This document shows positions 25,666-63,252 of a DNA stretch of 64,000 nucleotides, piece after piece. The notes under the pieces were generated by a model. That model had not been told where the DNA came from. It searched no databases and was given only the letters and a program-made list of their open reading frames with translations. Within the stretch, counting starts at the first letter, position 1. Each line of letters begins with the position of its first letter. The position numbers and the translations under genes were made by a program. This stretch comes from Propionivibrio limicola (lineage in GTDB: Bacteria; Pseudomonadota; Gammaproteobacteria; Burkholderiales; Rhodocyclaceae), in assembly GCF_009469695.1 (NCBI RefSeq), contig NZ_SSSR01000004.1, forward strand, positions 1-64,000. The letters are read 5' to 3'.

Positions 25666-27794
25666 CAGGCGGCCTCCCCGATCAGCGCGTTGCCCAGTTC
25701 ATGCTTCGACTCGTGTTTTGCCGCTTTGCCCGCCGCGCTCGCCTCGGCATCCAGCTTGAGTGGCAGTTGCACACGCAAATGGCAGTACTCGCCGCGTGTT
25801 GATCCGATGCGGATGCGACCGCCCTGTCGACTGATCATTTCCTTTACGGCATCGAGGCCAACGCCGCGTCCGGCATCCTCGTTCGCCTCTTCCTGCGTCG
25901 ATAGCCACGGCTCGAAGATCATCATCGTCAGCCTCCGCGTATCGAGCGATTGCGCCGCTTCGGCGGTGAAGCGGCCGGAACGGACAGCGGCCTGGCGGAC
26001 TTTTTCGAGATTGATGCCGGCCCCGTCGTCGCGGAAACTCAATTCGACGAAACCATCGCCCTGATCGGAAACATAAACCGCCAGATGCGCCGCTTCGGAC
26101 TTGCCGCGCAACTTGCGCTCGGACGGCGTTTCGACGCCATGCACGATCGCATTCCTGACGAACTGATTGACTGTCGTGTTCAGTGTTTCGCGCAGTGAAG
26201 AAGCCAGCGTCGAAAGCTCAAGCCCTTGATAGGTCAGATCGACTTTCTTGTGATGGCGCGTGGCAAGCTGGTTGGCGAAAGCATTCCACTGCCGAACCAT
26301 CGGCTGTACCGCATCTTCACCCGATTCACGCGGTGGGCGCGCCGGTTCGACGCTGACGATGCCGCGTATCTGACCGATTTTCGCGATCACGTCGCGAATG
26401 GCCGCAATCTCCGAAAACAGCGCCTTGACGCGCACGGTGACCGGCAACAGGTCTTCTGAGGTACGTTTCGTCTTCTCGCGCAGTTCGCGCAAGACCGACT
26501 CGAAACCGTGGAAAGACTGCGTGATGGCGTCGAGTTGCAGCGCCGCCGCGTCACCCTTGAGTTGATGCGCTGTTCTCGCAATCGCATCGATACAGCGCGT
26601 CTCGATCCCGGTCGTTGGGTTGCTCGTTCGAAGCATCTCGTTGATTTCGTTGAGGCCGTGGGTGGCGCTCGCGAGAAATTCCTGCAGCAGACGCGGATCG
26701 GCCTGCAGGATGTAGACCATCATCGTCATCTGATCCTGCACGCGGCGCTCGCTCTCGCGCAGTTCGCGTTCCAGACGGACCTGACGGCTGATGTTGTTGG
26801 CCGTGACCAGCAGGTGTGTCACCTTGCCGTTCTTGAACACGCGGTTGAAACGGATTTGCAGGAAGCGGGATTCAACGATGCCGTTCGGGCGCAATGAGCT
26901 GATTTCGACGCAGTCGAGCGGATTGAGGCTGGCGACGAGCTTTTCCTTCACGTCATGGCGCAACAGCAGTTCGATGTATTCCTTCGCCGTATCAAACGTC
27001 TTGGGCGATACCGAGGGTTTGAGCAGATCAAGGAAGTAATCGCCAGGTTTCACCTCAAAGCCGAGAACGCGGGTCAGCGCTTTGGATGTCTGCGCGCCCA
27101 TGCGCAGCTCGTGGTTGAGCAGGAATAGGCCGTCTTGCGTCGTGCGGAAAATATCCTCGATTTCACGGTGAGACGCTTCGACACGCACCGAAAAGAAGAG
27201 ACCGACACCCAGCAGCGCAATGCCGACAATACCAACGCCGATAACGAGATAGTCCATCTGGCTAGCCAGCGCCAGCATTGGGTCGGCAGAACCGTAGTCG
27301 ATCCCGACGAACACAGCCCCGCGCGTGCCATCCTGAAAGGAAACCGGCAGGTAGGTGGACATGTGCCGCCGGTCGAACAGGGTGATTTGTCCGGAATACT
27401 CTTTCCCTGCCTTCAGTGCTTTGGCTGCATCCGAATTCGGGTCAAGCACCGAGCCGACCGCCTGCGCGCCGTCCGCCTTTTTCAGGGTAGTTCTGGCGCG
27501 AACATAGTCACCGTGCTTGAACAGAAACATCGTCACCACCGTCTTGCCGTCGTTGGTAAAGGCATCGAGCAGCTTGGCGCGGGAAAGATAGTCCTCCGTC
27601 CAGTGTTCGGGCGACGCATGGATACCCTTCAGCGAGTGGGCCAGCGCGCTCGTCTGGTTTTCGAGCGCCCGGTTCGTCATCTGGGGAATGATCGAGAGTT
27701 TGATGAACGCCACGATGGCCACGATGACGAGAACGGCTGTCAGGCAGGAAGCGAAAAGCAGCTTGGTGGCGATGGATTTCGACTTGAAGCTCAT
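25665..27794 (-). CDS. Membrane-bound CheA-like histidine kinase with cache sensor, PAS-like and Hpt domains
   Basis: 709 residues. Helix near 12-32, then an extracytoplasmic cache-type domain (to about 185, with RGAVFVGIDYGSADP), a second helix (about 190-212), a PAS-like domain (about 215-345), an Hpt-type block TAHQLKGDAAALQL (His near 411), and a CheA-type ATPase with VNQFVRNAIVHGVETPSERK (about 535) and RGVGLDAVKEMISRQGG. No CheA P5/CheW-like domain and no receptor partner are present, so sensing and kinase functions are in one chain. It heads the kinase-CheY-CheX operon. The ligand is unknown. Confidence 0.85.
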   Translation of the reverse strand: MSFKSKSIATKLLFASCLTAVLVIVAIVAFIKLSIIPQMTNRALENQTSALAHSLKGIHASPEHWTEDYLSRAKLLDAFTNDGKTVVTMFLFKHGDYVRARTTLKKADGAQAVGSVLDPNSDAAKALKAGKEYSGQITLFDRRHMSTYLPVSFQDGTRGAVFVGIDYGSADPMLALASQMDYLVIGVGIVGIALLGVGLFFSVRVEASHREIEDIFRTTQDGLFLLNHELRMGAQTSKALTRVLGFEVKPGDYFLDLLKPSVSPKTFDTAKEYIELLLRHDVKEKLVASLNPLDCVEISSLRPNGIVESRFLQIRFNRVFKNGKVTHLLVTANNISRQVRLERELRESERRVQDQMTMMVYILQADPRLLQEFLASATHGLNEINEMLRTSNPTTGIETRCIDAIARTAHQLKGDAAALQLDAITQSFHGFESVLRELREKTKRTSEDLLPVTVRVKALFSEIAAIRDVIAKIGQIRGIVSVEPARPPRESGEDAVQPMVRQWNAFANQLATRHHKKVDLTYQGLELSTLASSLRETLNTTVNQFVRNAIVHGVETPSERKLRGKSEAAHLAVYVSDQGDGFVELSFRDDGAGINLEKVRQAAVRSGRFTAEAAQSLDTRRLTMMIFEPWLSTQEEANEDAGRGVGLDAVKEMISRQGGRIRIGSTRGEYCHLRVQLPLKLDAEASAAGKAAKHESKHELGNALIGEAA

Positions 27795-28079
27795 GGTGTG
27801 TCACCTCTTCAAAAGCGATCCGAATGCTGACGACTGCATTTGCAACGTATTCCGACATCGCTTCTATCCGGAAAGTCATAGATTGCGCATGTCATGTTGC
27901 GACGGCCATAGTTTCAAAAAAACAGTGACTTGTGCACTCGTAGAAACCGCAATAAAAAGCGGTAATTACGGACCTGCCGCCGCGAAGCAGGAAGGGCATG
28001 ACGCGCCAAAGCCAGCGCTGGCCGGCCCGTCGGCGAGGTTACAATTGCGCCGATTCGACTATCGCTGAGCGTGACCTGC

Positions 28080-31000
28080 ATGCCTCCTACTGTTTCTCCG
28101 CGCACCACGGCTTCTACCGCTCTTTCCGATGCGGTCGTTGCCAATGCCTCATCCGCGCCGGAGGCAATTCCGACCGCCGAACCCCTGCAACGCGTCGTCA
28201 AGATCAGGCGCGACTACAACACGTGGGTCGTCAACGAGACGCTCGAGGATTACGCGCTGCGCTTCACGCCGCACAGCTTCCGCAAGCTGTCCGAATGGCA
28301 GGTGGCGAACACGGCCTTCGGCGCCTCGTCGTTTCTCGTGCTGGAAGCGGTCGGCGCGACGATGCTGGTCAATAGCGGCTTCCTCAATGCCTTCTGGGCG
28401 ATTCTCGCCACTGGGCTGATCATTTTCCTGATCGGTCTACCAATCAGCCATGCGGCGGCCCGCTACGGGCTGGACATGGATCTGCTGACACGCGGCGCCG
28501 GCTTCGGCTACATCGGCTCGACGATCACCTCGCTGATCTACGCCTCGTTCACCTTCTTGTTCTTCGCGCTCGAAGCGGCGATCATGGCCTACGCGCTCGA
28601 ACTGGCCTTCGGCATCCCGCCAGCCTGGGGCTACCTGATCAGCGCGCTCGCCGTCATTCCGCTGGTCACGCACGGCGTCACCGCGATCAGCCGCTTGCAG
28701 ACATGGACGCAGCCGCTCTGGCTCGGCCTGCTGGTGCTGCCGTTCGCCTTCATTCTCGTGCAGGAGCCGGCGGTGCTCGGCGGGCTGCTGAACTACCCCG
28801 GCCAGCACGGCAATGGCGCCGCCTTTTCGATGCCACTGTTCGGCGCGGCGCTCACCGTCGGCATCGCGCTCGTCACGCAGATGGGCGAACAGGCCGATTA
28901 CCTGCGCTTCATGCCCGCCCGCACCGACAAGAACCACCGCCGCTGGTGGGCCTGCATGATCCTCGGCGGCCCCGGCTGGGTCATTCCCGGCATCGCCAAG
29001 ATGCTCGGCGGCGCCCTGCTCGCCTACCTCGCCCTGCGCAACGCGGTGCCGCTGGAAAAGGCCGTCGATCCGAACCAGATGTACCTGATCGGCTTCTCGC
29101 ATGTCTTTGACAACACCTCGCTGGCAATTGGCGCAACGGTGCTCTTCGTCGTCATCTCGCAGCTCAAGATCAACGTCACCAACGCCTACGCCGGTTCGCT
29201 CGCCTGGTCGAACTTCTTCGCGCGGCTGACGCACAGCCATCCGGGGCGCGTCGTCTGGGTGGTGTTCAACACGCTGATCGCCCTGCTGCTGATGGAACTC
29301 GACGTTTTTCAGGCGCTCGGGCAGGTGCTCGGTCTCTATTCGAACATCGCCATTTCGTGGATGACGGCCGTCGTCGCCGATCTCGTCATCAACAAGCCGC
29401 TCGGGCTATCGCCGAAACACATCGAATTCAAGCGCAGCCACCTGTACGACATCAACCCGGTCGGAGTCGGCGCCATGGGCATCGCCTCGCTGCTGTCGAT
29501 CTCGACCTACCTCGGCCTCTTCGGCGGCGCGATGCAGCCCTATGCCTCCTTCGTCGCGCTCGGCGCCGCCTTTGTCACCGCACCGCTAATCGCTTGGTGG
29601 ACGGGCGGCAAGTACTATCTCGTCCGCCGCGACGCACCGGCGCACCAGCACAAGCATCAGTGCTGCATCTGCGAACGCGAGTACGAAAGCGAGGACACCG
29701 CGCACTGCCCCGCCTACAACGGCCACATCTGTTCGCTGTGTTGTTCGCTCGATGCACGCTGCCACGACCTCTGCAAGCCCGGCGCCAATCTCGCCGCGCA
29801 GTGGAACCGCCTGCTGCAACGGCTTCTGCCGGCGTCGCTGCACTCGTATCTCGACGCCGGGCTGATGCACTACCTGCTGCTGATGGGCTGCATCGTGCCG
29901 TTGCTGGCCGGATTGCTCGGATTGCTCTACACGCACGAGGTGCTCGCCATCGGCGCCAGCCAGCCGGAACTGGTGCCACATCTGCGGCAGGTGTTCATCA
30001 AGACCTTCTCGGCGCTGCTGCTTTTTTCCGGCATCGTTGCCTGGTGGATGGTGCTGACGCACAAAAGCCGCAAAGTGGCGCAGGAGGAATCGAACCGGCA
30101 GACACACCTGCTGATGCAGGAAATCGACTCGCACCAGCGCACCGACGAGCAGTTGCAGAAGGCCAAGCAGGCGGCCGATCAGGCCAATCAGGCGAAGAGC
30201 CGCTACATCACGGCGATCAGCCACGAATTGCGCACGCCGCTCAACAGCATCCTCGGCTACGCGCAGATTCTCGATGGCGACGAGACGATTCCCGCCAACC
30301 GCCGGCAGGCGATCAGCGTCATCCGCAAGAGCGGCGACCACCTGCTGACGGTGATCGAAGGCACGCTCGACATCGCCCGCATTGAGGGCGGCAAGCTGAC
30401 GCTGACGGTCAAGCCCTGCGACTTCGCCGACTTCCTGCAGCAGATCGTCGGCATGTTCGAGCTGCAGGCGCGCAACAAGGGACTCGATTTCCGCTACGAC
30501 GCACCCGCCGAACTGCCGGGCATCGTGCGCGCCGACCAGCACCGGCTGCGCCAGATCCTGATCAATGTGCTCGGCAACGCCGTCAAATTCACCGCAAAGG
30601 GGGGCGTCGATTTCCGTATCGACTACCGGCGCGACATGGCCACCTTCGACATCCGCGACAGCGGCCCCGGCATTCCGTCCGACGACATCGAGCGCATTTT
30701 CGAGCCCTTCGTGCGTGGCCGTACGGCACAGGCCGGCGGCAGCGGCGTCGGCCTGACCATCGCCCGCATGCTGACCGACCTGATGGGCGGCGAAATGACC
30801 GTGAGCAGCCAGCCGGGCGAAGGCAGCGTGTTCCGCATCCGCCTCTTTCTGCCGCAGGTGCATTCGCTGCAGGAAGCGCGTGCCCTGCCGCGCCTCAACC
30901 GCATCGGCTATGTCGGCATTCGCCGCCGCATTCTCGTCGTCGATAACGAGAAGGTCGACCGCGACATGCTGCAAAGCGTACTCGACCCGCTCGGCTTTCA

Positions 31001-31556
31001 GGTCGAACAGGCGGCAAGCGGCGAGGAATGCCTGGCCGTGCTGCCGCGCTTTGCGCCGCACCTCGTCTTCATGGATCTGGCCATGCCGGGCATCGACGGC
31101 TGGGAGACGATCCGCCGCATCCGCGCCCAGCATCTCACCGACGCCCATATCGCCATCCTCTCGGCCAACGCCTTCGACAAGGGACTGGACAACGACGTCG
31201 GTCTGCCGCCCGACGATTTCATCGTCAAGCCGCTGCGCGTCGATGAATTGCTCGACTGGATCGGCAAAAAACTCGATCTCGAATGGGTCACCGCCAGCGA
31301 CGCCCCGGCGCCGGTTCAGCCCTCCCCCCAGCCGCCCGCGCTCGTCCCGCCCGGCGAAGACGCCCTGCGCGCGCTCGACGAGCTGATCGGCCTCGGCTAC
31401 GTGCGCGGCCTCCTCAACAAGCTCGGCGAAATCGAACGCGAGAAGCCGGAGTGCGAAGAATTCGTCAAAGTGCTGCGCACCCTGGCGCGCCAATTCCAGT
31501 TCGATGCCGTGCAGGAAGTTTTAAGGAAAGTCCGCAATGTCAGCACTGTCGCCTGA
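28080..31556 (+). CDS. NCS1 permease-histidine kinase-receiver fusion (putative ureide/nucleobase sensor)
   Basis: About 1158 residues from the ATG at 28080 (a GTG at 28071 is in frame). Residues about 45-520 form an NCS1-type permease with about 12 helices (NCS1 members carry cytosine, allantoin, uracil or hydantoins). A Cys/His cluster follows (about 525-565: HQCCICERE, AHC, ICSLCCSLDARCHDLC), then two more helices (about 585-660), a coiled linker, the H-box AISHELRTPLNSILGYAQIL (His near 714), a HATPase with GSGVGLTIARMLTDLMGG, and a receiver (about 950-1075, Asp in LVFMDLAMPG). A helical tail ends the chain. The next gene is a LuxR-type regulator overlapping by 20 bp. Permease-kinase fusions of other families (CbrA) sense transported solutes; the ligand here is inferred from nearby urea and ureide genes. 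Confidence 0.85.
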   Translation: MPPTVSPRTTASTALSDAVVANASSAPEAIPTAEPLQRVVKIRRDYNTWVVNETLEDYALRFTPHSFRKLSEWQVANTAFGASSFLVLEAVGATMLVNSGFLNAFWAILATGLIIFLIGLPISHAAARYGLDMDLLTRGAGFGYIGSTITSLIYASFTFLFFALEAAIMAYALELAFGIPPAWGYLISALAVIPLVTHGVTAISRLQTWTQPLWLGLLVLPFAFILVQEPAVLGGLLNYPGQHGNGAAFSMPLFGAALTVGIALVTQMGEQADYLRFMPARTDKNHRRWWACMILGGPGWVIPGIAKMLGGALLAYLALRNAVPLEKAVDPNQMYLIGFSHVFDNTSLAIGATVLFVVISQLKINVTNAYAGSLAWSNFFARLTHSHPGRVVWVVFNTLIALLLMELDVFQALGQVLGLYSNIAISWMTAVVADLVINKPLGLSPKHIEFKRSHLYDINPVGVGAMGIASLLSISTYLGLFGGAMQPYASFVALGAAFVTAPLIAWWTGGKYYLVRRDAPAHQHKHQCCICEREYESEDTAHCPAYNGHICSLCCSLDARCHDLCKPGANLAAQWNRLLQRLLPASLHSYLDAGLMHYLLLMGCIVPLLAGLLGLLYTHEVLAIGASQPELVPHLRQVFIKTFSALLLFSGIVAWWMVLTHKSRKVAQEESNRQTHLLMQEIDSHQRTDEQLQKAKQAADQANQAKSRYITAISHELRTPLNSILGYAQILDGDETIPANRRQAISVIRKSGDHLLTVIEGTLDIARIEGGKLTLTVKPCDFADFLQQIVGMFELQARNKGLDFRYDAPAELPGIVRADQHRLRQILINVLGNAVKFTAKGGVDFRIDYRRDMATFDIRDSGPGIPSDDIERIFEPFVRGRTAQAGGSGVGLTIARMLTDLMGGEMTVSSQPGEGSVFRIRLFLPQVHSLQEARALPRLNRIGYVGIRRRILVVDNEKVDRDMLQSVLDPLGFQVEQAASGEECLAVLPRFAPHLVFMDLAMPGIDGWETIRRIRAQHLTDAHIAILSANAFDKGLDNDVGLPPDDFIVKPLRVDELLDWIGKKLDLEWVTASDAPAPVQPSPQPPALVPPGEDALRALDELIGLGYVRGLLNKLGEIEREKPECEEFVKVLRTLARQFQFDAVQEVLRKVRNVSTVA

Positions 31557-32490
31557 AAACCATGCCGCCGTCGCCGAACGCGACATTTCCAATATCGTCC
31601 TCATCGTCGACGACATCCCGGAAAACCTCTCCCTGCTGCACGATGCGCTCGACGAAACCGGCTACACCGTGCTCGTCGCCACCAACGGCGAATCGGCCCT
31701 GCAACGCGCCCGCCAGAGCCTGCCCGACGTCATCCTGCTCGATGCGATGATGCCGGGAATGGACGGTTTCGAGGTCGCTCGTCGCCTGAAAGCCGATTTC
31801 GCCACGCACTCGATCCCGATCGTCTTCATGACCGGGCTGACCGAAACGGAACACGTCGTCGCCGCCTTTGCCGCCGGCGGCGCCGACTACGTGACCAAGC
31901 CGATTCGCCCGGCTGAAGTACTGGCCCGCATCGCCGCCCACATGCAGAACGCCCGCCAGATGAAACAGGCCCGCTCGGCGCTTGATGCCTTCGGTCAGGG
32001 CACGCTTGCCGTGCGCGCCCGCGACGGCAAGCTGGTCTGGCAGACACAACTGTCGCGCACGCTGCTCAAGGACTATTTCGCGCTCGCCGACGACCTGTCA
32101 CCGCCCCGCCTGCTCGCATGGATCGGCGAAGCGATCGAAGCCCGCCAAACCGGCCGCGAGCCGAACCCACTGCTCGTCGCCGAGGGCAACAAGCGCCTGC
32201 TCGCCTCCTTCCACGACCAGACCGGCGACGACGAATGGCTCGTCGTCCTGCGCGAAGAAAACGACGCCTCCGCCATCGAATCGCTGATCGCCGCCTTCCG
32301 CCTGACCCAGCGCGAAGCGGAAGTGCTCTACTGGGTCACGCTCGGCAAGACCAGCAAGGACATCGGCGACATCCTCGGCAGCAGCCCGCGCACGGTGAAC
32401 AAGCACCTCGAACACGTCTTCGAAAAACTCGGCGTCGAAACACGGACGGCGGCGGCCAATCTGGCGACGAGCAAGATGCGGGGGGCGTAA
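31537..32490 (+). CDS. LuxR-type response regulator, partner of the NCS1-kinase
   Basis: 317 residues. Receiver domain about 15-135 (IVDDIPENL, phosphoacceptor Asp in VILLDAMMPGMDG, Lys in DYVTKPIRP), a middle region of about 110 residues without clear identity, and a C-terminal LuxR/NarL HTH (about 248-310: LTQREAEVLYWVTLGKTSKDI...SSPRTVNKHLEHVFEKLGV). Its start lies inside the end of the kinase gene (20-bp overlap), so the two are made together. It is the best candidate to bind the TACG-N8-CGTA sites upstream of urtA and urtB; that link is inference. Confidence 0.88.
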   Translation: MSALSPENHAAVAERDISNIVLIVDDIPENLSLLHDALDETGYTVLVATNGESALQRARQSLPDVILLDAMMPGMDGFEVARRLKADFATHSIPIVFMTGLTETEHVVAAFAAGGADYVTKPIRPAEVLARIAAHMQNARQMKQARSALDAFGQGTLAVRARDGKLVWQTQLSRTLLKDYFALADDLSPPRLLAWIGEAIEARQTGREPNPLLVAEGNKRLLASFHDQTGDDEWLVVLREENDASAIESLIAAFRLTQREAEVLYWVTLGKTSKDIGDILGSSPRTVNKHLEHVFEKLGVETRTAAANLATSKMRGA

Positions 32491-32588: not shown

Positions 32589-33896
32589 ATGAGCGTATCG
32601 TCTAACATCATGCGTTCGATCATCGAAATTCATCAAAACGGAAACTGGATACCAGCGGCGGAGTTCGTACCGGCTGGCGCTCGATATTGCGGGACGTTCG
32701 GCTATTTGCCTGACTATGTATTCGGCGATGCGCCGACGCCGATCTCGTTTGCGCAGCCCGTTTCAATGGAGTACTACGGGATTGATATCGACAAGGGATA
32801 CCAGCCGCTCCCGGCCTTCCTGCTCGACCTCGTCCCGCAGGGGCGCGGGCGGACGTACCTGGCCCGCGAACTCGGAATTGCCGATGGCGACGATGCCGAT
32901 CTGCTTCTGGCGCAACACGGCGCGTTCAATCCGATTGGCAACCTTCGGCTGAATACCGCCGTCGAATTCTACGAATCACACAAAAAAGAGCATCCGGAAG
33001 GCAATCCGCCGGGCTACGCAATTGAGGACATCGCCGCGCGGCAGTCCGCCTTTCTCGAACACATCTGGCTCCATGCCATGCTCACCGCCGGCACAACCGG
33101 CGTTCAGGGCGCCGCCCCCAAATTCCTGCTCACGCAAAACCACGACGGACTCTGGTTTGCCGACGCCGCATTGCCCGATGCCGACCAAGCAAGGCATTGG
33201 CTCGTAAAACTGCCGCGCGGTTCCCACGAAACGGATTACGCGGTGCTGCGCAATGAAGCCGCCTACCTCCGCGTCGCGCAACACTGTGGATTGCGTGTCG
33301 CTGGCGAGCCGATGCTCCTGCGCGACATGCTGTTCGCGCCGCGCTTCGACCGTGCCGTCGATCAGGCCGGGCTGCATCGCCTGTCTCAGGAAACCCTCGC
33401 CTCGCTGGCCGGAATTCGCGCCTTTGGCGTTCCTGTACCGCTCTTCGAACTCGTCCGGGCATTTCAGCCCCATGTGGACGACCCCGTTGGCGAAATCGTC
33501 GAGTTCATTCGGCGCGACATTCTGAACATGGCCATGCGCAACACCGACAACCATGCGCGCAACACGTCCGTCCAACGCCTGCCGGACGGCAGGGTTCAAC
33601 TCACTCCGGTCTACGATTTCGCGCCCATGTACCTCGACCGGGAATTCGTCGTGCGCGGCTGCAAATGGCGGCACGAACGGCACCATGGCCGCGAACTCGT
33701 TGAATGGAACGACATCGTCGACCTCTTGACGCTTTCGGAAGATGACAAGGAAAGCGTACGCGCCGGCCTTCGCTATTTCGCCAAAACCGTCGCAACGCTC
33801 CCCGCCATCATGCAAGACTGCGGCGTCGACGACTTCGTGATCGACGACTGCAAACCGACGATTGCCGAGCAGGCCGAACGCCTGAACAGGGTGTAA
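32589..33896 (+). CDS. hipA: HipA-family serine/threonine kinase toxin
   Basis: 435 residues, close to E. coli HipA. HipA kinases phosphorylate aminoacyl-tRNA synthetases and cause dormancy. The N-terminal subdomain is followed by the kinase-like core: KFLL and WLVKLPRG (Lys for ATP), the catalytic block MRNTDNHARNTSV (about 310-322) and the metal-binding YDFAP of LTPVYDFAPMYL. A later ATG at 32610 (MRSIIEIHQN) is also possible. Toxin precedes antitoxin, the reverse of E. coli hipBA; hipB follows after 3 bp. Confidence 0.88.
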   Translation: MSVSSNIMRSIIEIHQNGNWIPAAEFVPAGARYCGTFGYLPDYVFGDAPTPISFAQPVSMEYYGIDIDKGYQPLPAFLLDLVPQGRGRTYLARELGIADGDDADLLLAQHGAFNPIGNLRLNTAVEFYESHKKEHPEGNPPGYAIEDIAARQSAFLEHIWLHAMLTAGTTGVQGAAPKFLLTQNHDGLWFADAALPDADQARHWLVKLPRGSHETDYAVLRNEAAYLRVAQHCGLRVAGEPMLLRDMLFAPRFDRAVDQAGLHRLSQETLASLAGIRAFGVPVPLFELVRAFQPHVDDPVGEIVEFIRRDILNMAMRNTDNHARNTSVQRLPDGRVQLTPVYDFAPMYLDREFVVRGCKWRHERHHGRELVEWNDIVDLLTLSEDDKESVRAGLRYFAKTVATLPAIMQDCGVDDFVIDDCKPTIAEQAERLNRV

Positions 33897-33899
33897 GCC

Positions 33900-34750: not shown

Positions 34751-35007
34751 CTATTAAGGAACCCCCCTAAAAGATGGAAAAGGAGGCTGTCTTGTTGAAA
34801 TTTCATAAAAAACATTGAGCCCCCCAAAAACTAGGCATCCTAATGCTTTCGTGACATCGTCATTCGATTGCAATCAACAAAAACGTTGGATCGCACTCGT
34901 AAGCACAGCAGGTCAAGCACCGTAGCATACGAAGGGGCGAGGTTTATGTCCAGAATGCGGACGCTGCGCTTTTTCCATCGCAAGCCACTTCCTTCGACCT
35001 TCCCCAC
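34751..35007. other. Gene-free stretch upstream of urtA
   Basis: About 250 bp of lower-GC DNA before the urtA control region. Short open frames here have no recognisable product. A run of C/G (34760-34767) and A-rich tracts near 34770-34870 are seen, but no clear terminator, tRNA or repeat. Confidence 0.5.
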
Positions 35008-35023
35008 TACGCAATCTGACGTA
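35008..35023 (+). promoter_or_regulatory. TACG-N8-CGTA motif upstream of urtA
   Basis: TACGCAATCTGACGTA, preceded by CAC and followed by TTCCC, ends 108 bp before the urtA ATG. It matches the site before urtB at 14 of 16 positions and shares flanks. Inverted TACG/CGTA half-sites fit a NarL/LuxR-type dimer. Binding by the regulator at 31537-32490 is proposed, not shown. Confidence 0.5.
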
Positions 35024-35131
35024 TTCCCGCATCAATCAGGCTTCCTTAATCTGGCATGGCGCTGTGGTGAATGCCGCAGCAATCGGTAACCCAAAGACCT
35101 GCCACGATTTTCATTTCAAGGAGCCTCCACG

Positions 35132-36403
35132 ATGACATCCCGCCGTTCCTTCATCAAAGCCAGCGTGCTTGCCGCATCGCTTGCCACCATGGGACTGACG
35201 TCCCTTTCCGCTTTCGCCGCCGATACGATCAAGGTCGGCATCCTGCATTCGCTTTCCGGCACGATGGCGATTTCCGAAACGGCGCTGAAAGAAACGGCGC
35301 TGATGACCATCGACGAAATCAACAAGGCCGGCGGTGTCATGGGCAAGAAGCTGGAACCGGTCGTCGTCGATCCGGCCTCCAATTGGCCACTGTTCGCCGA
35401 AAAGGCCCGCCAGCTGCTGACCAAGGACAAGGTCGCCGTCACCTTCGGCTGCTGGACTTCGGTTTCCCGCAAGTCCGTGCTGCCGGTTTACAAGGAATTG
35501 AACGGCCTGCTCTTCTACCCGGTGCAGTACGAAGGCGAAGAGCTGGAGAAAAACGTCTTCTACACCGGTGCCGCGCCTAACCAGCAGGCCATCCCGGCGG
35601 TGGAATACCTGATGAGCAAGGACGGCGGCGAAGCCAAGCGCTTCGTGCTGCTCGGCACCGACTACGTCTATCCGCGCACCACCAACAAGATCCTGCGCGC
35701 TTTCCTCAAGTCCAAGGGCGTGGCTGACGCGGACATCATGGAAGAGTACACGCCGTTCGGCCACAGCGATTACCAGACGATCATCGCCAAGATCAAGAAA
35801 TTCGCTGGCGAAGGCAAGAAAACCGCTGTCGTGTCGACCATCAACGGCGACTCCAACGTGCCGTTCTACAAGGAGCTCGGGAATGCGGGCCTGAAGGCCA
35901 CCGATGTGCCGGTCGTCGCCTTCTCGGTCGGAGAAGAAGAACTGCGCGGCGTCGATACCAAGCCGCTGGTCGGCCACTTGGCTGCATGGAACTATTTCCA
36001 GTCGCTGAAGAACGCCGAGAACACCAAGTTCATCAAGATGTACAAGGACTGGGCGGCCAAGCAGAAGCTGCCGAACGCCAAGACCGTCGTAACCAACGAC
36101 CCGATGGAAGCGACCTACATCGGCATCCATATGTGGAAGCAGGCCGTCGAGAAGGCCAAGTCGACCGACACCGACAAGGTCATCGCCGCCATGGCCGGCC
36201 AGACCTTCAAGGCGCCGAGCGGCATCCTCTCGAAGATGGACGAGAAGAATCACCACCTGCACAAGTCGGTATTCATCGGCGAAGTGAAGGGCGACGGTCA
36301 GTTCAACGTCGTCTGGAAGACGCCCGGCCCGGTCAAGGCCCAGCCGTGGAGCCCGTACATTCCGGGCAACGACAAGAAGAAGGACGAGCCGGAAGGCAAA
36401 TAA
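35132..36403 (+). CDS. urtA: Urea ABC transporter substrate-binding protein UrtA
   Basis: 423 residues. It binds urea in the periplasm for the UrtBC/UrtDE importer. The N terminus MTSRRSFIKASVLAASLATM is a Tat-type signal (twin Arg at 4-5), cleaved near AFA-ADT; the mature protein starts DTIKVGILHSLSGTMAISET, the UrtA hallmark, with KTAVVSTINGDSN later in the fold. A strong AAGGAG site precedes the ATG. urtBCDE lie 9 kb downstream, separated by six genes, which is unusual; a terminator follows this gene. Confidence 0.95.
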   Translation: MTSRRSFIKASVLAASLATMGLTSLSAFAADTIKVGILHSLSGTMAISETALKETALMTIDEINKAGGVMGKKLEPVVVDPASNWPLFAEKARQLLTKDKVAVTFGCWTSVSRKSVLPVYKELNGLLFYPVQYEGEELEKNVFYTGAAPNQQAIPAVEYLMSKDGGEAKRFVLLGTDYVYPRTTNKILRAFLKSKGVADADIMEEYTPFGHSDYQTIIAKIKKFAGEGKKTAVVSTINGDSNVPFYKELGNAGLKATDVPVVAFSVGEEELRGVDTKPLVGHLAAWNYFQSLKNAENTKFIKMYKDWAAKQKLPNAKTVVTNDPMEATYIGIHMWKQAVEKAKSTDTDKVIAAMAGQTFKAPSGILSKMDEKNHHLHKSVFIGEVKGDGQFNVVWKTPGPVKAQPWSPYIPGNDKKKDEPEGK

Positions 36404-36503: not shown

Positions 36504-36537
36504 AGCAAATCTGCGTTTGCTCAATTTCTCAACACGC

Positions 36538-36562
36538 AACGGGAGCTTCGGCTCCCGTTTTT
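36538..36562 (+). terminator. Rho-independent terminator after urtA
   Basis: ACGGGAGC, a short loop, GCTCCCGT, then a run of T. The stem is 8 bp with a TTCG loop. It would end urtA transcripts before mqo, confirming that urtA is its own transcription unit. Confidence 0.85.
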
Positions 36563-45499: not shown

Positions 45500-45669
45500 T
45501 TGGACGATCTTTCTTCGAGTGGAGTGAAGGTAAATATGCTTTTAGTCTAAACAGATGATGTGAATTACACGTTACAGAGCCGTTTGGCATTTGATAAGCA
45601 GTCTCCTTCGTGACACCTGATGCCGGGCGCGTCATCTGGAAAAGCTGCTGCCGGAACGAAATTCCGCAC

Positions 45670-45685
45670 TACGCAATTTGTCGTA
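45670..45685 (+). promoter_or_regulatory. TACG-N8-CGTA motif upstream of urtB
   Basis: TACGCAATTTGTCGTA, preceded by CAC and followed by TTTCC, ends 64 bp before the urtB start. It is the best-conserved member of the motif set (others at 35008, 45237, 62004). Half-sites are inverted TACG/CGTA. Confidence 0.5.
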
Positions 45686-45749
45686 TTTCCTCCGTTGAAC
45701 GCCGTCCGTAAGCTTCGCCTCAAGTATTCAAACTGCGGACGGACCGTTC

Positions 45750-47327
45750 ATGTTCAAAACACTTCTCACCCTGCTTTTTGCCGTTTGCGCCCTGTCGGCG
45801 CAGGCAGCCCCCGATCCGGCACTGGTGCGCCAGCTGGCCGACGAGGATTCCAGCCAGAAAGTGGCGGCGATCCAGCAACTGACGCAGACCGCCGACCCGG
45901 ACACGCTGCGCGTGCTCAAGGCGATGTCGGAAGACAGCCTGTATCTGGCGGGCGACAAGGTCGTCGTCATCGATGGCGACGCGGCTTTCGATGCCGCCTC
46001 CGGCGCCGCCATCAAGAAACCGGAGACGGCCGACGCGGTCACCGTCAACAACCGTCTGCGCGGCGAGCTGGCCAACGCGCTGGCGGCGCTCAAGCTGTTC
46101 GACGCCGATCCGGCCGTGCGCCTGGCCTCGGCGCAGAAACTGCAAAGCAGCGTCAGTCCGGCAATGGTGCCGCTGCTCGCCCGCGCCCTCGCGCAGGAAA
46201 GCGACGAGAAGATCAAATCGCTGCTGACGCTGGCCCATGCGCAAGCCAATCTCGGCAACAGAGACCCGGCCGCCCGGCTGGCCGCCGTGCGGGCGCTGGC
46301 CAAGACTTCCTCGCCGGCGATCAAAACGGCGCTGCTGCCGCTGACCGACAAGGCCAACGAGGCCGACAGCCGGGTGCGCTATGCGGCGATCTCGGCGGTC
46401 AAGGCCATTGACAGCAATCTGTCCCGCACAGAGAAGATCGGCCAGATATTTTCCGGCCTCTCGCTCGGCAGCATCCTGCTGCTCGGCGCGCTCGGGCTGG
46501 CGATTACCTACGGCGTCATGGGCATCATCAACATGGCGCACGGCGAATTGCTGATGGTCGGCGCCTATTCGGCCTACGCCATGCAGAGCCTCTTCCGCAG
46601 CTATTTCCCGGAAGCCATCGACTGGTATCTGCTGGCGGCCGTGCCGGTTGGCTTCTTCGCGGCAGCGCTGGTCGGCGTGGTCATGGAGCGCACCGTCATC
46701 CGCTGGCTCTACGGCCGTACGCTGGAAACGCTGCTCGCCACTTGGGGGCTGTCGCTGGTGATGATTCAGGGCGCACGTCTGCTGTTCGGCGCACAAAACG
46801 TCGAGGTCGCCAATCCGTCGTGGATGTCGAGCGGCATCGAACTGCTGCCGAATCTGGTCCTGCCCTGGAACCGGCTGATCATCATCGGTTTCGCGCTGTT
46901 CGTGCTGGCGCTCGTCTGGGTGCTGATGAACAAAACGCGGCTCGGCATGTTCGTCCGCGCCGTCACCCAGAACCGCCAGATGGCCGGCTGCGTCGGCGTG
47001 CCGACCTCGCGCATCGACACGCTGGCCTTCGCGCTCGGTGCCGGCATCGCCGGGCTGGGCGGCGTGGCGCTGTCGCAGATTTCCAACGTCGGCCCGGACA
47101 TGGGTCAGGGCTACATCGTCGATGCCTTCATGGTCGTCGTGCTCGGCGGCGTCGGGCAACTGGCCGGTGCTGTCTGGGCCGCGCTCGGCCTCGGCGTCGT
47201 CACCAAGCTGCTTGAAGGCTGGGCCGGCGCCGTCATCGCCAAGATCGTCGCCCTCGTCTTCATCATCATCTTCATCCAGAAGCGTCCGCAGGGTCTGTTT
47301 GCCCTCAAGGGCCGCTTCGTCGAATGA
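45750..47327 (+). CDS. urtB: Urea ABC transporter permease UrtB
   Basis: 525 residues. A signal-like N terminus (MFKTLLTLLFAVCALSAQAA) is followed by a HEAT-like helical domain of about 200 residues, typical of UrtB, and then a LivH-type permease of 8 or more helices (YGVMGIINMAHGELLMVGAY at about 252-271; GAGIAGLGGVALSQISNVGP near 430). It forms the membrane channel with UrtC. The stop overlaps the urtC ATG (ATGA). Confidence 0.95.
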   Translation: MFKTLLTLLFAVCALSAQAAPDPALVRQLADEDSSQKVAAIQQLTQTADPDTLRVLKAMSEDSLYLAGDKVVVIDGDAAFDAASGAAIKKPETADAVTVNNRLRGELANALAALKLFDADPAVRLASAQKLQSSVSPAMVPLLARALAQESDEKIKSLLTLAHAQANLGNRDPAARLAAVRALAKTSSPAIKTALLPLTDKANEADSRVRYAAISAVKAIDSNLSRTEKIGQIFSGLSLGSILLLGALGLAITYGVMGIINMAHGELLMVGAYSAYAMQSLFRSYFPEAIDWYLLAAVPVGFFAAALVGVVMERTVIRWLYGRTLETLLATWGLSLVMIQGARLLFGAQNVEVANPSWMSSGIELLPNLVLPWNRLIIIGFALFVLALVWVLMNKTRLGMFVRAVTQNRQMAGCVGVPTSRIDTLAFALGAGIAGLGGVALSQISNVGPDMGQGYIVDAFMVVVLGGVGQLAGAVWAALGLGVVTKLLEGWAGAVIAKIVALVFIIIFIQKRPQGLFALKGRFVE

Positions 47328-48457
47328 GTCCAATCATGCATACGCCATTCACCCTGCGTTTTCTTTCCTCCATCGACCGCAAGAGCGGCATCGCGCTCGC
47401 CGTCTTTCTGGCCGTCGCCCTGCTCGCCGTGCCCCTGCTGCACAGCGCGTTTCCGCCGGAAAGCCTCTTCCACGTCTCGACTTACGCCATCACGCTCGTC
47501 GGCAAGATCATGTGCTACGCGATTGTGGCGATAGCGATGGATCTGATCTGGGGCTACGGTGGCATCCTGTCGCTCGGCCACGGGCTGTTTTTCGCGCTCG
47601 GCGGCTACACCTTCGGCATGTACCTGATGCGCCAGATCGGCCGCGACGGCAGCTACGGCGCCGACCTGCCCGACTTCATGGTCTTCCTCGACTGGAAGGA
47701 GCTGCCCTGGTACTGGCACGGCAGCGACAGCTTCCTGTGGGTGGCGCTGCTGGTCGTGCTGGTGCCGGCGCTGGTCGCCTGCATCTTCGGCTTCTTCGCC
47801 TTCCGCTCGCGCATCAAGGGCGTCTATTTCTCGATCATCACACAGGCGCTGACCTACGCCGCGATGCTGCTCTTCTTCCGCAACGAAACGGGCTTCGGCG
47901 GCAATAACGGCTTCACCGACTTCAAGCGCATCCTCGGCTACAGCATCACCGCGCCGGAAACGCGGCTGGTCCTGTTCGGCCTGACGGCGCTGCTGCTGGC
48001 CGCCACCTTCGTCTTTGCCAAATGGCTGGTCGGCTCGAAGTACGGCCGCGTGCTGACGGCGATCCGCGACGCCGAATCGCGCGTCATGTTCATCGGCTAC
48101 AACCCGCTCTGGTTCAAGCTCTTCGTCTGGACCGTCTCGGCCGTCCTGTGCGGCATCGCCGGCGCGCTCTACGTGCCGCAGGTCGGCATCATCAACCCCT
48201 CCGAAATGGGCGTCGCCAACTCGATCGAAATCGCCATCTGGGTCGCCGTCGGCGGACGCGGCACGCTGATCGGGCCGATCATCGGCGCCTTTGTCGTCAA
48301 TCTGGCCAAGAGCTGGTTCACCGTTTCGTTCCCCGAATACTGGCTGTTCTTTCTCGGGCTGCTGTTCATCGTCGTCACGCTACTGCTGCCGCAAGGGCTG
48401 ATCGGCCTGTGGAAATCGCTACGTCAGGCACGCGCCGGCAAAGGAGGAAAAGCATGA
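47324..48457 (+). CDS. urtC: Urea ABC transporter permease UrtC
   Basis: 377 residues, LivM-type permease with about 10 helices; DLIWGYGGILSLGHGLFFALGG (about 70-91) and ISPSEMG-like GIINPSEMGVANSIEIAIWVAVGGRGTL (about 289-316) are hallmarks. The ATG at 47324 overlaps the urtB stop; an ATG four codons later (47336) is equally plausible. The stop overlaps urtD by 4 bp. Confidence 0.95.
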   Translation: MSPIMHTPFTLRFLSSIDRKSGIALAVFLAVALLAVPLLHSAFPPESLFHVSTYAITLVGKIMCYAIVAIAMDLIWGYGGILSLGHGLFFALGGYTFGMYLMRQIGRDGSYGADLPDFMVFLDWKELPWYWHGSDSFLWVALLVVLVPALVACIFGFFAFRSRIKGVYFSIITQALTYAAMLLFFRNETGFGGNNGFTDFKRILGYSITAPETRLVLFGLTALLLAATFVFAKWLVGSKYGRVLTAIRDAESRVMFIGYNPLWFKLFVWTVSAVLCGIAGALYVPQVGIINPSEMGVANSIEIAIWVAVGGRGTLIGPIIGAFVVNLAKSWFTVSFPEYWLFFLGLLFIVVTLLLPQGLIGLWKSLRQARAGKGGKA

Positions 48458-49290
48458 GCACCCGCGAAGTGATGCGCAAAATTTTCGGCATCGAGGACGA
48501 TGAAGATAACGGCTTCGGCTACCCGGACCGGCAAACCCGGCTCGATCTCTCGCACAACGTCATCCTGTACCTGGAAGACATTACCGTCAGCTTCGACGGC
48601 TTTCGGGCGCTCAACAAGCTGAATCTGGCCATCGACGCCGGCGAGCTGCGCTGCATCATCGGCCCGAACGGTGCCGGCAAAACGACGATGATGGACGTCA
48701 TCACCGGCAAGACGCGCCCCGATTCCGGCCGCGCCTTCTTCGGCCAGACCATCGACCTGACGCGCCTGACCGAACCGCAGATCGCCCACACCGGCATCGG
48801 CCGCAAGTTCCAGAAACCGACGATCTTCGAGCAGCACAGCGCCTTCGAAAACCTCGAACTGGCGATGAAGACCGACAAGCGCGTCAGCAAAAGCCTGTTC
48901 GCCACCCTGCGCGACGAGCAGCGCGACCGCATCGCCGCCACCCTCACCCAGATCGGCCTCGGCCACGAAGCCGACCGCCCCGCCGGCCTGCTCTCGCACG
49001 GCCAGAAGCAATGGCTCGAAATCGGCATGCTGCTGATGCAGGAACCGCAACTGCTGCTGCTCGACGAACCGGTCGCCGGCATGACCGACGACGAGACGGT
49101 GAAGACGGCGGAGTTGTTTCTCTCGCTCGCCGGCAAGCACTCGCTCGTCGTCGTCGAACACGACATGAGCTTCATCGAACGCCTCGGCGGCAAGGTGACG
49201 GTGCTGCATGAAGGGTCGGTGTTGATGGAGGGGGATCTGGCGACGGTGCAGAATGATCAGCGGGTGATTGAAGTGTATTTGGGGCGCTGA
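48454..49290 (+). CDS. urtD: Urea ABC transporter ATPase UrtD
   Basis: 278 residues. Walker A GPNGAGKTT (about 68-76), signature LSHGQKQWLEIGM (the LSxGQ form of LivG/UrtD proteins, about 179-191), Walker B LLLLDEPVAGM and switch His in VVVEHDMSFIE. The ATG at 48454 has AAAGGAGG upstream; the frame is open further back inside urtC, but the first 25 residues (MSTREVMRKIFGIEDDEDN) are the normal UrtD leader. Couples ATP hydrolysis to urea import. Confidence 0.95.
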   Translation: MSTREVMRKIFGIEDDEDNGFGYPDRQTRLDLSHNVILYLEDITVSFDGFRALNKLNLAIDAGELRCIIGPNGAGKTTMMDVITGKTRPDSGRAFFGQTIDLTRLTEPQIAHTGIGRKFQKPTIFEQHSAFENLELAMKTDKRVSKSLFATLRDEQRDRIAATLTQIGLGHEADRPAGLLSHGQKQWLEIGMLLMQEPQLLLLDEPVAGMTDDETVKTAELFLSLAGKHSLVVVEHDMSFIERLGGKVTVLHEGSVLMEGDLATVQNDQRVIEVYLGR

Positions 49291-49335: not shown

Positions 49336-49776
49336 GGCATACTTTCTTTTGCTTCGCCAAAAGAAAGTAGCCAAAGAAAAGGCGACCCCACGTTACGCGG
49401 TCGGCTACGCCGACTCCCCTGCGCTACTCGTCAAGCCGGGCGGCTGCGCAACTCGGGGCGATGCCCCTCAAACAGTGCTCGCCGACTTCCCCCGGCTCGC
49501 CTCCGTTGCTCGGCGCTGCACGAGGGGGAGCTTAAAACCATCTGATTTTTACCGCAGGAGGCAAAAAATCCGCTCGGTTGTCCTGTTGCCCTTTGCGTCG
49601 TCGAGCAGCGCAGGGCGCAACGGGAAAAAGGGCGAGGACTGTCTGAGGGCCGCAGGCCCGAGTTCCGCAGCCCCCCGTTGCGCACGAGCAGCGCAGAGAA
49701 CCCGGCGCAGCCGGGCGACGCAGCGGGCGTGCCTTTTCTTTGGGCACTTTCTTTTGGCAAAACAAAAGAAAGTGCC
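49336..49776. mobile_element. MITE-like element between urtD and urtE
   Basis: About 441 bp with terminal inverted repeats of about 45 bp. Left end GGCATACTTTCTTTTGCTTC, right end (complement) GGCACTTTCTTTTGTTTTGC; both continue as GCCAAAAGAAAGT and CCAAAGAAAAGGC. Each terminal repeat can itself fold as a hairpin. The interior is GC-rich with no convincing gene, only frames read through repeats. It splits urtD from urtE by 546 bp where the genes are normally adjacent. No target duplication is obvious. Confidence 0.7.
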
Positions 49777-49836
49777 TCGCCGGTCAGCGGCGAAACCCAG
49801 CCTCTCACCAAACACCCAAGCTTGAGGAACCAAAAA

Positions 49837-50607
49837 ATGCTCAAAACCGAAAACCTCAACCAATACTACGGCGGCAGCCACATCCTCCGCGGCCTCTCCT
49901 TCGACGTCGAACCCGGCAAAGTCACCAGCCTGCTCGGCCGCAACGGCGTCGGCAAGACGACGCTGATGAAATGCCTGATGGGCCTCGTCAAGGTCAAATC
50001 CGGCAGCATCACCTTCAACGGCAAGGACATCACCAACGCCGCCCCGCACGAGCGCGTCAAGGCCGGCATCGCCTACGTCCCGCAAGGCCGCGAAATCTTC
50101 CCGCGCCTCACCGTCGAAGAAAACCTGCTGATGGGCATGGCCACAAAACCCGGCAGCGCCAAAATCCCGGCGCAGATTTTCGAACTTTTCCCGGTCCTCA
50201 AAAGCATGCTCAACCGGCGCGGCGGCGACCTCTCGGGCGGCCAGCAACAGCAACTCGCCATCGGCCGCGCGCTGGCCATGGACCCGCAACTGCTCATCCT
50301 CGACGAACCGACCGAAGGCATCCAGCCCTCGATCATCAAGGACATCGGCCACGCCATCCGCGTCGTCGCCCAGCGCCCGGTGCAGAAGCCCGTCACCGCC
50401 TCCGGCGAAGAGCGCGCCGAGGTCAAGGACGCCATCCGCAAGGTCGCCGAAACCGGCAAAGTCGCCATCCTGCTCGTCGAGCAATACTACGACTTCGCCC
50501 GCGACCTCGCCGACCACTACCTGCTCATGGAACGCGGAGAATTCATCATGCGCGGGCTGGGCGCGGATATGGACAAGGACGGGGTAAGGGAGGCGCTGGC
50601 GGTGTAG
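49837..50607 (+). CDS. urtE: Urea ABC transporter ATPase UrtE
   Basis: 256 residues from the ATG at 49837 (GAGGAA upstream). Walker A GRNGVGKTT (about 35-43), signature LSGGQQQQLAIGRAL, Walker B LLILDEPTEGIQPSII. An insert of about 25 residues rich in Lys/Glu (AQRPVQKPVTASGEERAEV) precedes VAILLVEQYYDFARD, making it longer than the usual 230 residues. An open frame extends upstream into the MITE-like element but is not part of the gene. Expression across the 546-bp gap may need readthrough or a promoter near the element. Confidence 0.95.
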   Translation: MLKTENLNQYYGGSHILRGLSFDVEPGKVTSLLGRNGVGKTTLMKCLMGLVKVKSGSITFNGKDITNAAPHERVKAGIAYVPQGREIFPRLTVEENLLMGMATKPGSAKIPAQIFELFPVLKSMLNRRGGDLSGGQQQQLAIGRALAMDPQLLILDEPTEGIQPSIIKDIGHAIRVVAQRPVQKPVTASGEERAEVKDAIRKVAETGKVAILLVEQYYDFARDLADHYLLMERGEFIMRGLGADMDKDGVREALAV

Positions 50608-61968: not shown

Positions 61969-62003
61969 AAAGAGGTTCGTGCGCAACGCATCACGAAAGC
62001 GAG

Positions 62004-62019
62004 TGCGCAATTCTGCGTA
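62004..62019 (+). promoter_or_regulatory. Possible TACG-N8-CGTA-type site upstream of ureD
   Basis: TGCGCAATTCTGCGTA keeps 12 of 16 bases of the urtB site, with the same spacing and a following TT. It ends 35 bp before the ureD ATG. It is a weaker match than the two urt sites. Confidence 0.35.
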
Positions 62020-62054
62020 TTATCGGTTCCGCTCCCTCCGGCGATAATGTCCGC

Positions 62055-62927
62055 ATGAATCCGCATTCCGTCCTCCAGCCGCCGACGCCCCCCACGCTAT
62101 CGCCGGTCTGGCACGCCAAGCTACACCTTGGTTTCGTAAGCAGCGATGGCCGCACCGTGCTGCGCGAGAACCGGCACGCCGGCCCCTTGCGCGTGCAGAA
62201 GGCGCTGCATCCGGAGGGCGAGGCGGTGTGTCAGGCGATTGTGCTGCATCCGCCGTCGGGCATTGCCGGGGGCGACCAGTTGCTGATCAACGTCCATGTC
62301 GGCCCTCAGGCCCACGCGCAACTCACCACGCCGGGCGCGGGCAAGTGGTATCGCTCGGGCGGTGCCGATGCCTCGCAAACACTCGATTTCACCGTCGCCG
62401 ATCAGGCCATTCTCGAATGGCTGCCGCAGGAGACGATTGTGTTCGACGGTGCCAAAAGCCGCATGGAAACGAAGGTGCTGCTCGGCGAGGGCAGCCGCTA
62501 TCTCGGCTGGGAAATCCTCTGCCTTGGCCGCAGCGCCTCCGGGGAACGTTTCGACCACGGCCACATCGGCCTGCACACGCGCATTGAGCGCCATGGCCAG
62601 CCGCTGTGGCTGGAACGCGGCCGCATCGAAGGAGCTGACCCGATGCTCGCCAGCGTCGCCGGCTGGGCCGGGGCGAGCGTCGGCGGCACGCTGCTAGCGA
62701 CCTTGCAGCCTGGCGACGAGATCGCCGCGCTGCTGGAAACCTGCCGCTCCATCGCCCCCGCCGACGGAGCCGAACACGCGCTGACCGCCTTGCCGAATCT
62801 GCTCGTCGCCCGCTATCTTGGACATAACAGCGAGGCGGCGCGCCTGTGGTTCGCCGCGCTCTGGCAAAGCCTTCGCCCGGCCCTGCTCGGCCGCCCCGCC
62901 CTGACACCCCGCATCTGGAACACCTGA
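62055..62927 (+). CDS. ureD: Urease accessory protein UreD
   Basis: 290 residues. UreD binds apo-urease with UreF and UreG during nickel insertion. [31 protein letters not shown] (about 24-54) and [19 protein letters not shown] (about 93-111) are family blocks. The ATG at 62055 has no good Shine-Dalgarno sequence. First gene of the urease operon. Confidence 0.93.
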
Positions 62928-62949: not shown

Positions 62950-63252
62950 ATGGAACTCACCCCCCGCGAAAAAGACAAGCTGCTCATTTTCACCGCCGGC
63001 CTGCTCGCCGAACGGCGCCGTGCGCGCGGCTTGAAACTCAACTACCCAGAAGCCATCGCGCTGATCACCTGCGCGATCATGGAAGGCGCCCGCGACGGCA
63101 AGAGCGTCGCCGAGCTGATGAGCGAGGGCACGAAAGTGCTGAGCCGCGCCGACGTGATGGACGGCATCGCCGAGATGATTCCGGAGATTCAGGTCGAAGC
63201 CACCTTCCCCGACGGCACCAAGCTCGTCACCGTTCACCACCCTATCGTCTGA
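62950..63252 (+). CDS. ureA: Urease gamma subunit
   Basis: 100 residues, exact family length. [20 protein letters not shown] and [21 protein letters not shown] are UreA signatures. Part of the nickel urease that splits urea to ammonia and carbamate. AAGGAG precedes the start. Confidence 0.97.

Follow-up and report, generated by a model that had tools for sequence, protein, structure and literature searches.

What does a histidine kinase sense when its input domain is a whole permease? The question is posed by a gene in a 64,000-nucleotide stretch of Propionivibrio limicola DNA (contig NZ_SSSR01000004.1, positions 1 to 64,000; hereafter the window), whose product joins an NCS1-like permease to a hybrid histidine kinase and which is followed by the overlapping gene of a LuxR/NarL-type response regulator (Table 1). 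The first-pass annotation of this DNA had proposed, from linkage to urt, allantoicase and urease genes, that the pair is a nitrogen-supply sensor for ureides or urea. Urea ranks among the main sources of nitrogen in soil, water and hosts. With a probability of about 0.72, we read the fusion as a urea-sensing transceptor histidine kinase, and not as a ureide sensor.

Architecture and fold of the permease-kinase fusion

From its N-terminus, the fusion comprises the permease domain, a segment with eight conserved cysteines, two further helices, and HisKA, HATPase and receiver domains. It has the H-box His, the HATPase and the Asp-bearing receiver of a hybrid HisKA kinase, while its partner has the receiver and GerE helix-turn-helix of a NarL/LuxR-type regulator (Pfam Response_reg, residues 21-132; GerE, residues 256-310), with Asp69 as the predicted phospho-acceptor. 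The open reading frame (ORF) of the fusion starts with GTG; an in-frame ATG three codons further on, at position 28080, would give a product of 1158 residues. The frame is not due to chance, because relatives in other genera sit in similarly long open frames: with the first 683 residues as the query, relatives are found at 50-69% identity, nearly all in frames of at least 1007 codons. The single chain of about 1158 residues and the overlapping LuxR-type regulator described in the first-pass annotation are borne out by the reading frames, Pfam and the structural model alike. In the annotated records that we opened, the fusion is labelled merely as an ATP-binding protein, a hybrid kinase or a response regulator.

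The fusion gives no match to the NCS1 family (PF02133) in Pfam even at an E value of 10, a scan of its own genome with that family gives 0 matches, and the NCS1 label therefore needed structure. Searches of PDB sequences with the fused permease, a hidden Markov model (A1) included, returned nothing but a single chance match at E 0.1, and those with a standalone relative from K. pneumoniae returned no match. Since Pfam and the PDB sequence searches came up empty, homology was next sought at the level of structure and of profiles. An AlphaFold2 model of residues 37-690, built from 41 sequences (predicted local distance difference test, pLDDT, 77.1; predicted template modelling score, pTM, 0.76), ranks Mhp1 and CodB first in Foldseek. 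The structural match is best for CodB (Z 35.6, 397 of 401 residues aligned), followed by Mhp1 (Z 29.4) and the next family (Z 24.0). A profile of the fusion family aligns in hhalign with a profile of nine NCS1 proteins (98.8%, E 6e-17, 405 columns), these being E. coli CodB and eight others whose frames were picked by length and hydrophobicity; against the CodB sequence alone, hhalign gave no match. PF02133 is reached via the K. pneumoniae standalone permease, which passes the cut-off (37.7 bits, cut-off 23.5), although the standalone permease of another genome, G263, does not match that family in Pfam. SLC5 structures score Z about 20-23 against 35.6 for CodB, which does not fit an SLC5 sensor domain, and Pfam gives no STAC match in the fusion at E 10, the presence of a STAC model in that library being unchecked. 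The permease domain almost certainly has the NCS1 fold, as the first-pass annotation had supposed, with fold and profile rather than Pfam as the support.

The pocket residues set this domain apart from its solved relatives. They were compared in an alignment of 168 rows, in which the K. pneumoniae and Arthrobacter permeases are counted twice each, and the roles of the CodB sites are those given in the part of PMC9379551 available to us. The NCS1 pair Arg216/Tyr285 (CodB numbering) is kept as R279/Y373 in all 168 rows. The aromatic pair that sandwiches the ligand in NCS1 proteins (Trp108, Phe/Trp204) is not retained: the Trp108 position is Phe in 144 rows and Leu in 24, and the Phe204 position is Ile, Val, Met or Leu in 166 of 168, with the register of transmembrane helix 6 less certain beside a one-residue gap. 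Thr278 of the CodB sodium site is Lys366, Asn280 is retained as Asn368 and Ser206 is replaced by Gln270, each in 168 of 168 rows, standalone permeases among them. These replacements suggest a pocket that would have neither the ring-stacking sandwich nor sodium coupling. In CbrA, the sodium site is also filled by a lysine (Lys196) and transport is proton-dependent, according to the part of PMC13022988 that we consulted. Because the ligand-stacking pair is not retained, we describe the domain as a divergent NCS1-fold subfamily and not as a nucleobase transporter.

The segment that follows the permease contains cysteines 531, 532, 534, 546, 554, 557, 558, 564 and 568, of which all except 532 show at least 97% conservation across 166 rows. 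Modelled alone (pLDDT 79.5), it weakly resembles two-zinc modules of the RING/FYVE/PHD type (best Z 4.3, no Foldseek match at E 0.001) and is possibly a small metal-binding module. The segment also ends the G263 standalone permease and is shortened in that of K. pneumoniae. As standalone permeases carry it, it is a feature of the permease family and not one of the fusion.

Linkage to urea genes and a predicted regulator site

Two contexts recur around relatives of the fusion, namely urease and urt genes, on the window's side of the family tree, and urt genes with formamidase (fmdA). Loci were classified by homology thresholds of our own choosing, counting ure, urt and fmdA genes within about 10 kb. 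Such genes occur near 54 of 56 sampled loci; among 40 control loci of those genomes the count is 1 (Fisher p 3e-23). It should be noted that control region L243 (genome G615) was placed at an arbitrary position, i.e. strictly 39 of the 40 controls are kinase loci. By class, the sampled loci are fmd+urt (35), ure+urt (8), urt (5), ure (4), fmd (2) and none (2), the last two lying on short contigs (11.4 and 4.8 kb). A second set, the named loci, consists of the best 80 of at least 577 relatives in 84,980 species genomes, and divides into ure (30), ure+urt (20), urt (12), fmd+ure+urt (1) and none (17). Thus 63 of 80 are linked, or 45 of 57 among those with at least 20 kb of sequence. At the level of whole genomes, urtA is above the cut-off in 50 of 52 fusion genomes compared with 85 of 346 others (p 2e-24, counts read by eye).

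The same contexts are found on plasmids. Urease adjoins the fusion on an annotated Mitsuaria plasmid; urt and formamidase genes are at the fusion on plasmids of B. vietnamiensis, K. oxytoca, Chelatococcus and Methylobacterium; a Sphingobium plasmid has urt and urease, and those of Thioclava and S. meliloti have urt alone. The record of an Acinetobacter plasmid carried no annotation.

A predicted regulator site points to the same genes. In the region between the fusion and a divergent urtA (39 loci), a search for inverted repeats finds ATACG-N8-CGTAT in 16, while in ten shuffled sets no inverted repeat reaches more than 3 loci. The palindrome, ATACGYCANNTGRCGTAT, came from fusion-urtA regions of other genomes; extended to 18 bp, it fits at 11 or more of 16 positions in 36 of the 39 regions, as against 6.8% of shuffles (made in blocks of two bases for locus sets, and two or three for the window). 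A weight matrix was then trained on 36 sites, none of them from the window. Its enrichment in the 39 regions (39 of 39 above the 95% level) is in-sample, and the window, 27 named loci and plasmids are held out. In the window, the three best hits lie directly before urtA, urtB and ureD (Table 1), and the fourth scores 9.4. Over 60 shuffled windows the best score is 10.8 on average and 17.6 at most, and the urtA and urtB sites exceed all of them. Among the 27 held-out named loci, 22 have their top-scoring site, taken over the whole locus, no more than 600 bp upstream of urtA, and seven of eight named plasmid loci that played no part in training have their best or second-best site before urtA. 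The site of the S. meliloti pSymB copy scores 24.3 bits at about 97 bp from urtA, and the Sphingobium plasmid has an additional site about 240 bp before ureD. Control loci have a best site below 12 in 35 of 40 cases and never above 13.5. A K. pneumoniae urease region, with no fusion in the stretch examined, shows no good site (best 7.6). Within the P. limicola genome, a stricter pattern allowing at most one mismatch has three occurrences, of which two precede urtA and urtB. The third (C11:190714), close to the 5′ end of an ORF whose translation looks GGDEF/EAL-like, was treated as chance.

Ureide genes behave differently. Protein probes for allantoicase and ureidoglycolate lyase match none of the 80 named and none of the 56 sampled loci, compared with 3 of 40 controls, and the window's own copies, about 27 kb from the pair, have no predicted site in the weight-matrix scan of the 64 kb. 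Of the linkage on which the first-pass annotation built its proposal, the urea half is therefore supported, both by the neighbourhoods of homologs and by the predicted sites before urtA, urtB and ureD, whereas the ureide half is not.

Proposed mechanism and competing readings

We propose that the NCS1-fold domain would bind urea at its broken-helix site, and that the resulting conformational change would reach the HisKA dimer helix by way of the Cys-rich module and the two final helices, by analogy with the transporter-kinases CbrA and Ks-Amt5. The conserved domains suggest that phosphate would move from His718 to Asp1002 and on to Asp69 of the LuxR-type partner, either directly or via an Hpt protein. 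The phosphorylated regulator would then occupy the 18-bp palindrome before urtA, urtBCDE and ureD, as located by comparison, and presumably induce urea uptake and urease. Among relatives, this type of sensor comes with a urt-type transporter and formamidase, and there it probably reads formamide or both amides. The regulon of the pair is very likely to be urt/ure. It is probable that the permease domain binds urea or an amide directly; that it also still transports its ligand is somewhat less likely than not.

Several observations weigh against this reading. No urea gene is in reach at 17 of the 80 named loci, 12 of which have at least 20 kb of sequence, and one control locus (L227) also adjoins urease genes. 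In favour of the reading, the genomes of the 17 unlinked loci still have urtA above the cut-off in 14 cases and ureC in 15. Another pathway was considered for these loci and dropped, as the neighbours of six of them (L034, L042, L052, L068, L072, L085) have no common theme; they include TolC, an ATP-binding cassette (ABC) exporter, c-di-GMP enzymes, a TonB receptor, a MurF-like ligase, TrkH, a LysR regulator and a transglutaminase. As for the predicted sites, that of ureD (15.8 bits) is below the highest shuffled maximum and rests on its position, and 42 of the 80 named loci have a best site anywhere below 12. Before ureA of urease-type loci the site is weak (above the 95% shuffle level in 14 of 50, rank 1 in 8 of 51); a GC-rich variant, chosen after seeing the data, matches 10 of 50 ureA promoters in no fewer than 12 of 14 positions, a level that no shuffle attains. 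The palindrome is absent in Thioclava and in two loci of a split type, L158 and L177 (see below). The stricter pattern is rarer in the P. limicola genome than its reversed control (3 vs. 11 per strand), and therefore only the position of the sites counts. Finally, many relatives adjoin formamidase and the ligand of the whole family may not be urea, and what is sensed could be transporter flux or a different signal, the permease fold being a mere membrane part.

The competing reading that survives best, though we consider it unlikely, is that of a short-chain amide sensor, which would bind formamide or acetamide with urea as an analogue, urt/ure having been recruited to the same regulator in the window. 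It is favoured by the formamidase gene at 37 of the 56 sampled loci, 35 of them with urt, and by one of the standalone permeases, whose locations are the best hint to the ligand class. The G263 standalone permease is divergent from a fusion, with a near-perfect palindrome between the two, and has fmdA, fmdB and the gene of a nitrilase-type amidase behind it, in an operon that stands where other genomes carry urtABCDE. The K. pneumoniae standalone ‘cytosine permease’ (WP_002916878), which is 44.6% identical to the fused permease and has no kinase, argues the other way, being the last gene of a urease cluster, after ureG; an Arthrobacter standalone permease has no informative neighbours.

The family tree also speaks against such an amide sensor. 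In a tree of 166 rows, made by a fast method and containing several long branches, the labels U (urease-linked, 66 rows) and F (formamidase-linked, 44 rows) require just 6 changes, and ligand preference may have split along these lines. The smallest strongly supported set that includes the window holds 79 rows (U 54, none 17, urt 7, UF 1, F 0), where the window counts as U by our own assignment although ureD is 30 kb off and the 10-kb rule would give ‘urt’. Residues that distinguish the U and F groups were considered as specificity determinants and dropped, being confounded by ancestry. The signal of the family is better restated as urea or short-chain amides, since many relatives are linked to formamidase while the window's protein belongs to the urea-linked part of the tree.

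Less likely again is a permease domain that has degenerated into a membrane anchor, with the kinase reading an internal signal such as nitrogen status, a metal via the Cys segment, or flux through UrtABCDE. The BceS kinase, as described in the part of PMC8534201 we consulted, reads transporter flux through its partner, and the eight conserved cysteines could bind metal or sense redox. A mere anchor would have no need, however, of a Q270, K366 and N368 that are identical in every aligned row, standalone permeases included, and a Cys segment shared with a standalone permease is not specific to the kinase. A ureide or nucleobase ligand (allantoin, hydantoin, uracil or cytosine) is very improbable in spite of the NCS1 fold and of allantoicase and ureidoglycolate lyase genes within 32 kb, given the lack of predicted sites at these genes, the probes that match 0 of 136 homolog loci (ureide genes having been probed, with nucleobase genes outside the probe set) and the replacement of the CodB ring-stacking pair, subject to the helix 6 register.

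Returning to the urea-sensing reading, we lean slightly towards a wider interpretation, in which an NCS1-fold subfamily left ring ligands and gave rise to standalone urea/short-amide permeases and to dedicated urea/formamide receptors, the latter kinase-fused and forming the great majority of those sampled. If so, a lysine stands in for the sodium site, and ligand preference diverged between urease-linked and formamidase-linked clades. The fused and standalone permeases offer a paired comparison of how a transporter turns into a receptor, and the regulon can be tested directly through the predicted 18-bp site.

Related systems, distribution and surrounding genes

The first-pass annotation had likened the fusion to CbrA, and the analogy is supported: CbrA, CrbS and RpuS, the SLC5-STAC histidine kinases, also join a LeuT-fold transporter to a histidine kinase, and Lys196 in the Na2 site of CbrA (PMC13022988, seen in part) has its counterpart in Lys366 of the fusion, which aligns with the CodB Na2 residue Thr278. 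CrbS is likewise a hybrid kinase with a LuxR-type partner, for which an inverted repeat is needed for activation (PMC5715377 and PMC9100948, both in part). The sensor of these kinases is SLC5 whereas that of the fusion is NCS1-like, their STAC domain stands where the fusion has its Cys-rich module and two further helices, and their regulons concern histidine, acetate or pyruvate, in contrast to the predicted urea/amide regulon here. Ks-Amt5 also uses a nitrogen-source transporter as the sensory module of a kinase (PMC5764959, in part), but from the unrelated Amt family and with ammonium as the ligand. CodB and Mhp1 are the closest solved folds and share the R216/Y285 pair; the fusion differs in lacking their ring-stacking aromatics and Na2 threonines and in being joined to a kinase, and has 77 identities with CodB over 405 aligned columns. 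That an NCS1 fold can take a non-ring substrate is indicated by the metformin transporter MetT (partial text of PMC13390362), which is a transporter only and is likened here by description, without sequence comparison.

No named NCS1-kinase system was recognised among the matches listed in full-text literature searches, subscription papers being out of reach, and the histidine-kinase review PMC8534201 does not contain the word NCS1. In the portions seen, PMC13296017 has, purely as annotation, a hybrid kinase and a LuxR regulator next to a second urtABCDE, and PMC13209695 describes urtABCDE with formamidase and does not mention a sensor. Transporter-kinase fusions are thus already known; as far as we found, the NCS1 type with a urea/amide regulon is apparently unnamed and adds a third transporter class, after SLC5 and Amt, to the kinase-fused receptors. 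Were its ligand urea, these receptors would gain a new sensory input. The AraC-type regulator UreR is the only direct bacterial urea sensor known to us, and we know of no other histidine kinase that reads urea directly; the fusion would be the first, if the reading is true.

The sensor family is widespread and apparently unstudied. A class-wide sample of 274 genomes yields 18 with a match to the fusion query (P. limicola among them; three matches are partial or weak). A Pseudomonadota sample queried with the K. pneumoniae permease gives 52 of 398 genomes, again with P. limicola, carrying 57 members, all in frames of at least 894 codons. The permease domain is matched in 566 plasmid records, 342 of them from Klebsiella, and the Klebsiella plasmid matches are mostly the kinase fusion among the matches listed. 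The set of urt, formamidase and sensor genes travels on Klebsiella plasmids, and in one K. oxytoca plasmid (L029) it is near the clpK/hsp20 heat-resistance genes. At the chosen threshold, 76 of the 80 named loci and 50 of the 56 sampled ones have a match to the partner regulator. Four of the six sampled loci that lack one (L146, L147, L152, L154) have partners that keep the receiver and helix-turn-helix but lack the middle segment of about 100 residues found in the window's regulator. At the other two, L158 and L177, no LuxR partner was found; here the permease-kinase has no receiver and sits beside a receiver-HisKA-HATPase protein, with fmdA/fmdB nearby. Genome G249 has two fusion copies (L201, L202) about 9.5 kb apart, of which one alone directly adjoins urt and formamidase genes.

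Table 1. Features of the P. limicola window discussed in the text, with positions counted from its first nucleotide.
Feature	Position	Strand	Remarks
NCS1-like permease/HisKA/HATPase/receiver fusion	28071..31556	+	ORF, GTG start, 1161 aa (1161 codons)
NCS1-fold permease domain	28179..29630	+	about aa 37-520; AlphaFold2 model, structure and profile comparison
Cys-rich segment	29661..29774	+	aa 531-568; eight conserved Cys
Two extra long helices	29832..30137	+	about aa 588-689; second one heads towards kinase; AlphaFold2 model
HisKA	30192..30392	+	Pfam, aa 708-774; predicted phospho-acceptor His718
HATPase_c	30534..30851	+	Pfam, aa 822-927
Receiver domain of fusion	30930..31256	+	Pfam Response_reg, aa 954-1062; predicted phospho-acceptor Asp1002
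LuxR/NarL-type response regulator	31537..32490	+	317 aa; overlaps fusion ORF by 20 nt
Predicted regulator site CTACGCAATCTGACGTAT	35007..35024	.	24.1 bits, best in 64-kb window; directly before urtA
urtA, urea ABC transporter binding protein	35132..36403	+	TIGR03407, 588.9 bits, cut-off 492.75
Predicted regulator site CTACGCAATTTGTCGTAT	45669..45686	.	18.7 bits, second best; directly before urtB
urtB	45750..47327	+	TIGR03409
urtC	47324..48457	+	TIGR03408
urtD	48556..49290	+	coding region by homology
urtE-like ABC ATPase	49678..50607	+	ORF; true start probably later
Allantoicase	59009-60034		
Ureidoglycolate lyase	within ORF 59050-60564		
Predicted regulator site GTGCGCAATTCTGCGTAT	62003..62020	.	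15.8 bits, third best; directly before ureD
ureD, first urease-cluster gene	62055..62927	+	
ureA	62950..63246	+	homology extent; ureB next, cut off by window end

Just upstream of the fusion, on the minus strand (24849-27794), the window encodes a Cache-Hpt-HATPase sensor kinase, a single receiver protein and a CheX-type phosphatase. The interval between the regulator and urtA (32589-34187) holds a HipA-like kinase followed by a small helix-turn-helix protein, i.e. a HipBA-type pair in A-B order. About 9 kb (36517-44968) parts urtA from urtBCDE and encodes Mqo, an AraC regulator, a peptidyl-prolyl isomerase, a tannase-family protein and a Cache/CheW protein; urtA and urtBCDE each retain their own predicted site. 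In a K. pneumoniae record (L027, 2347-7790), the urease cluster has no annotated ureC, and an IS110-family transposase is annotated there instead.

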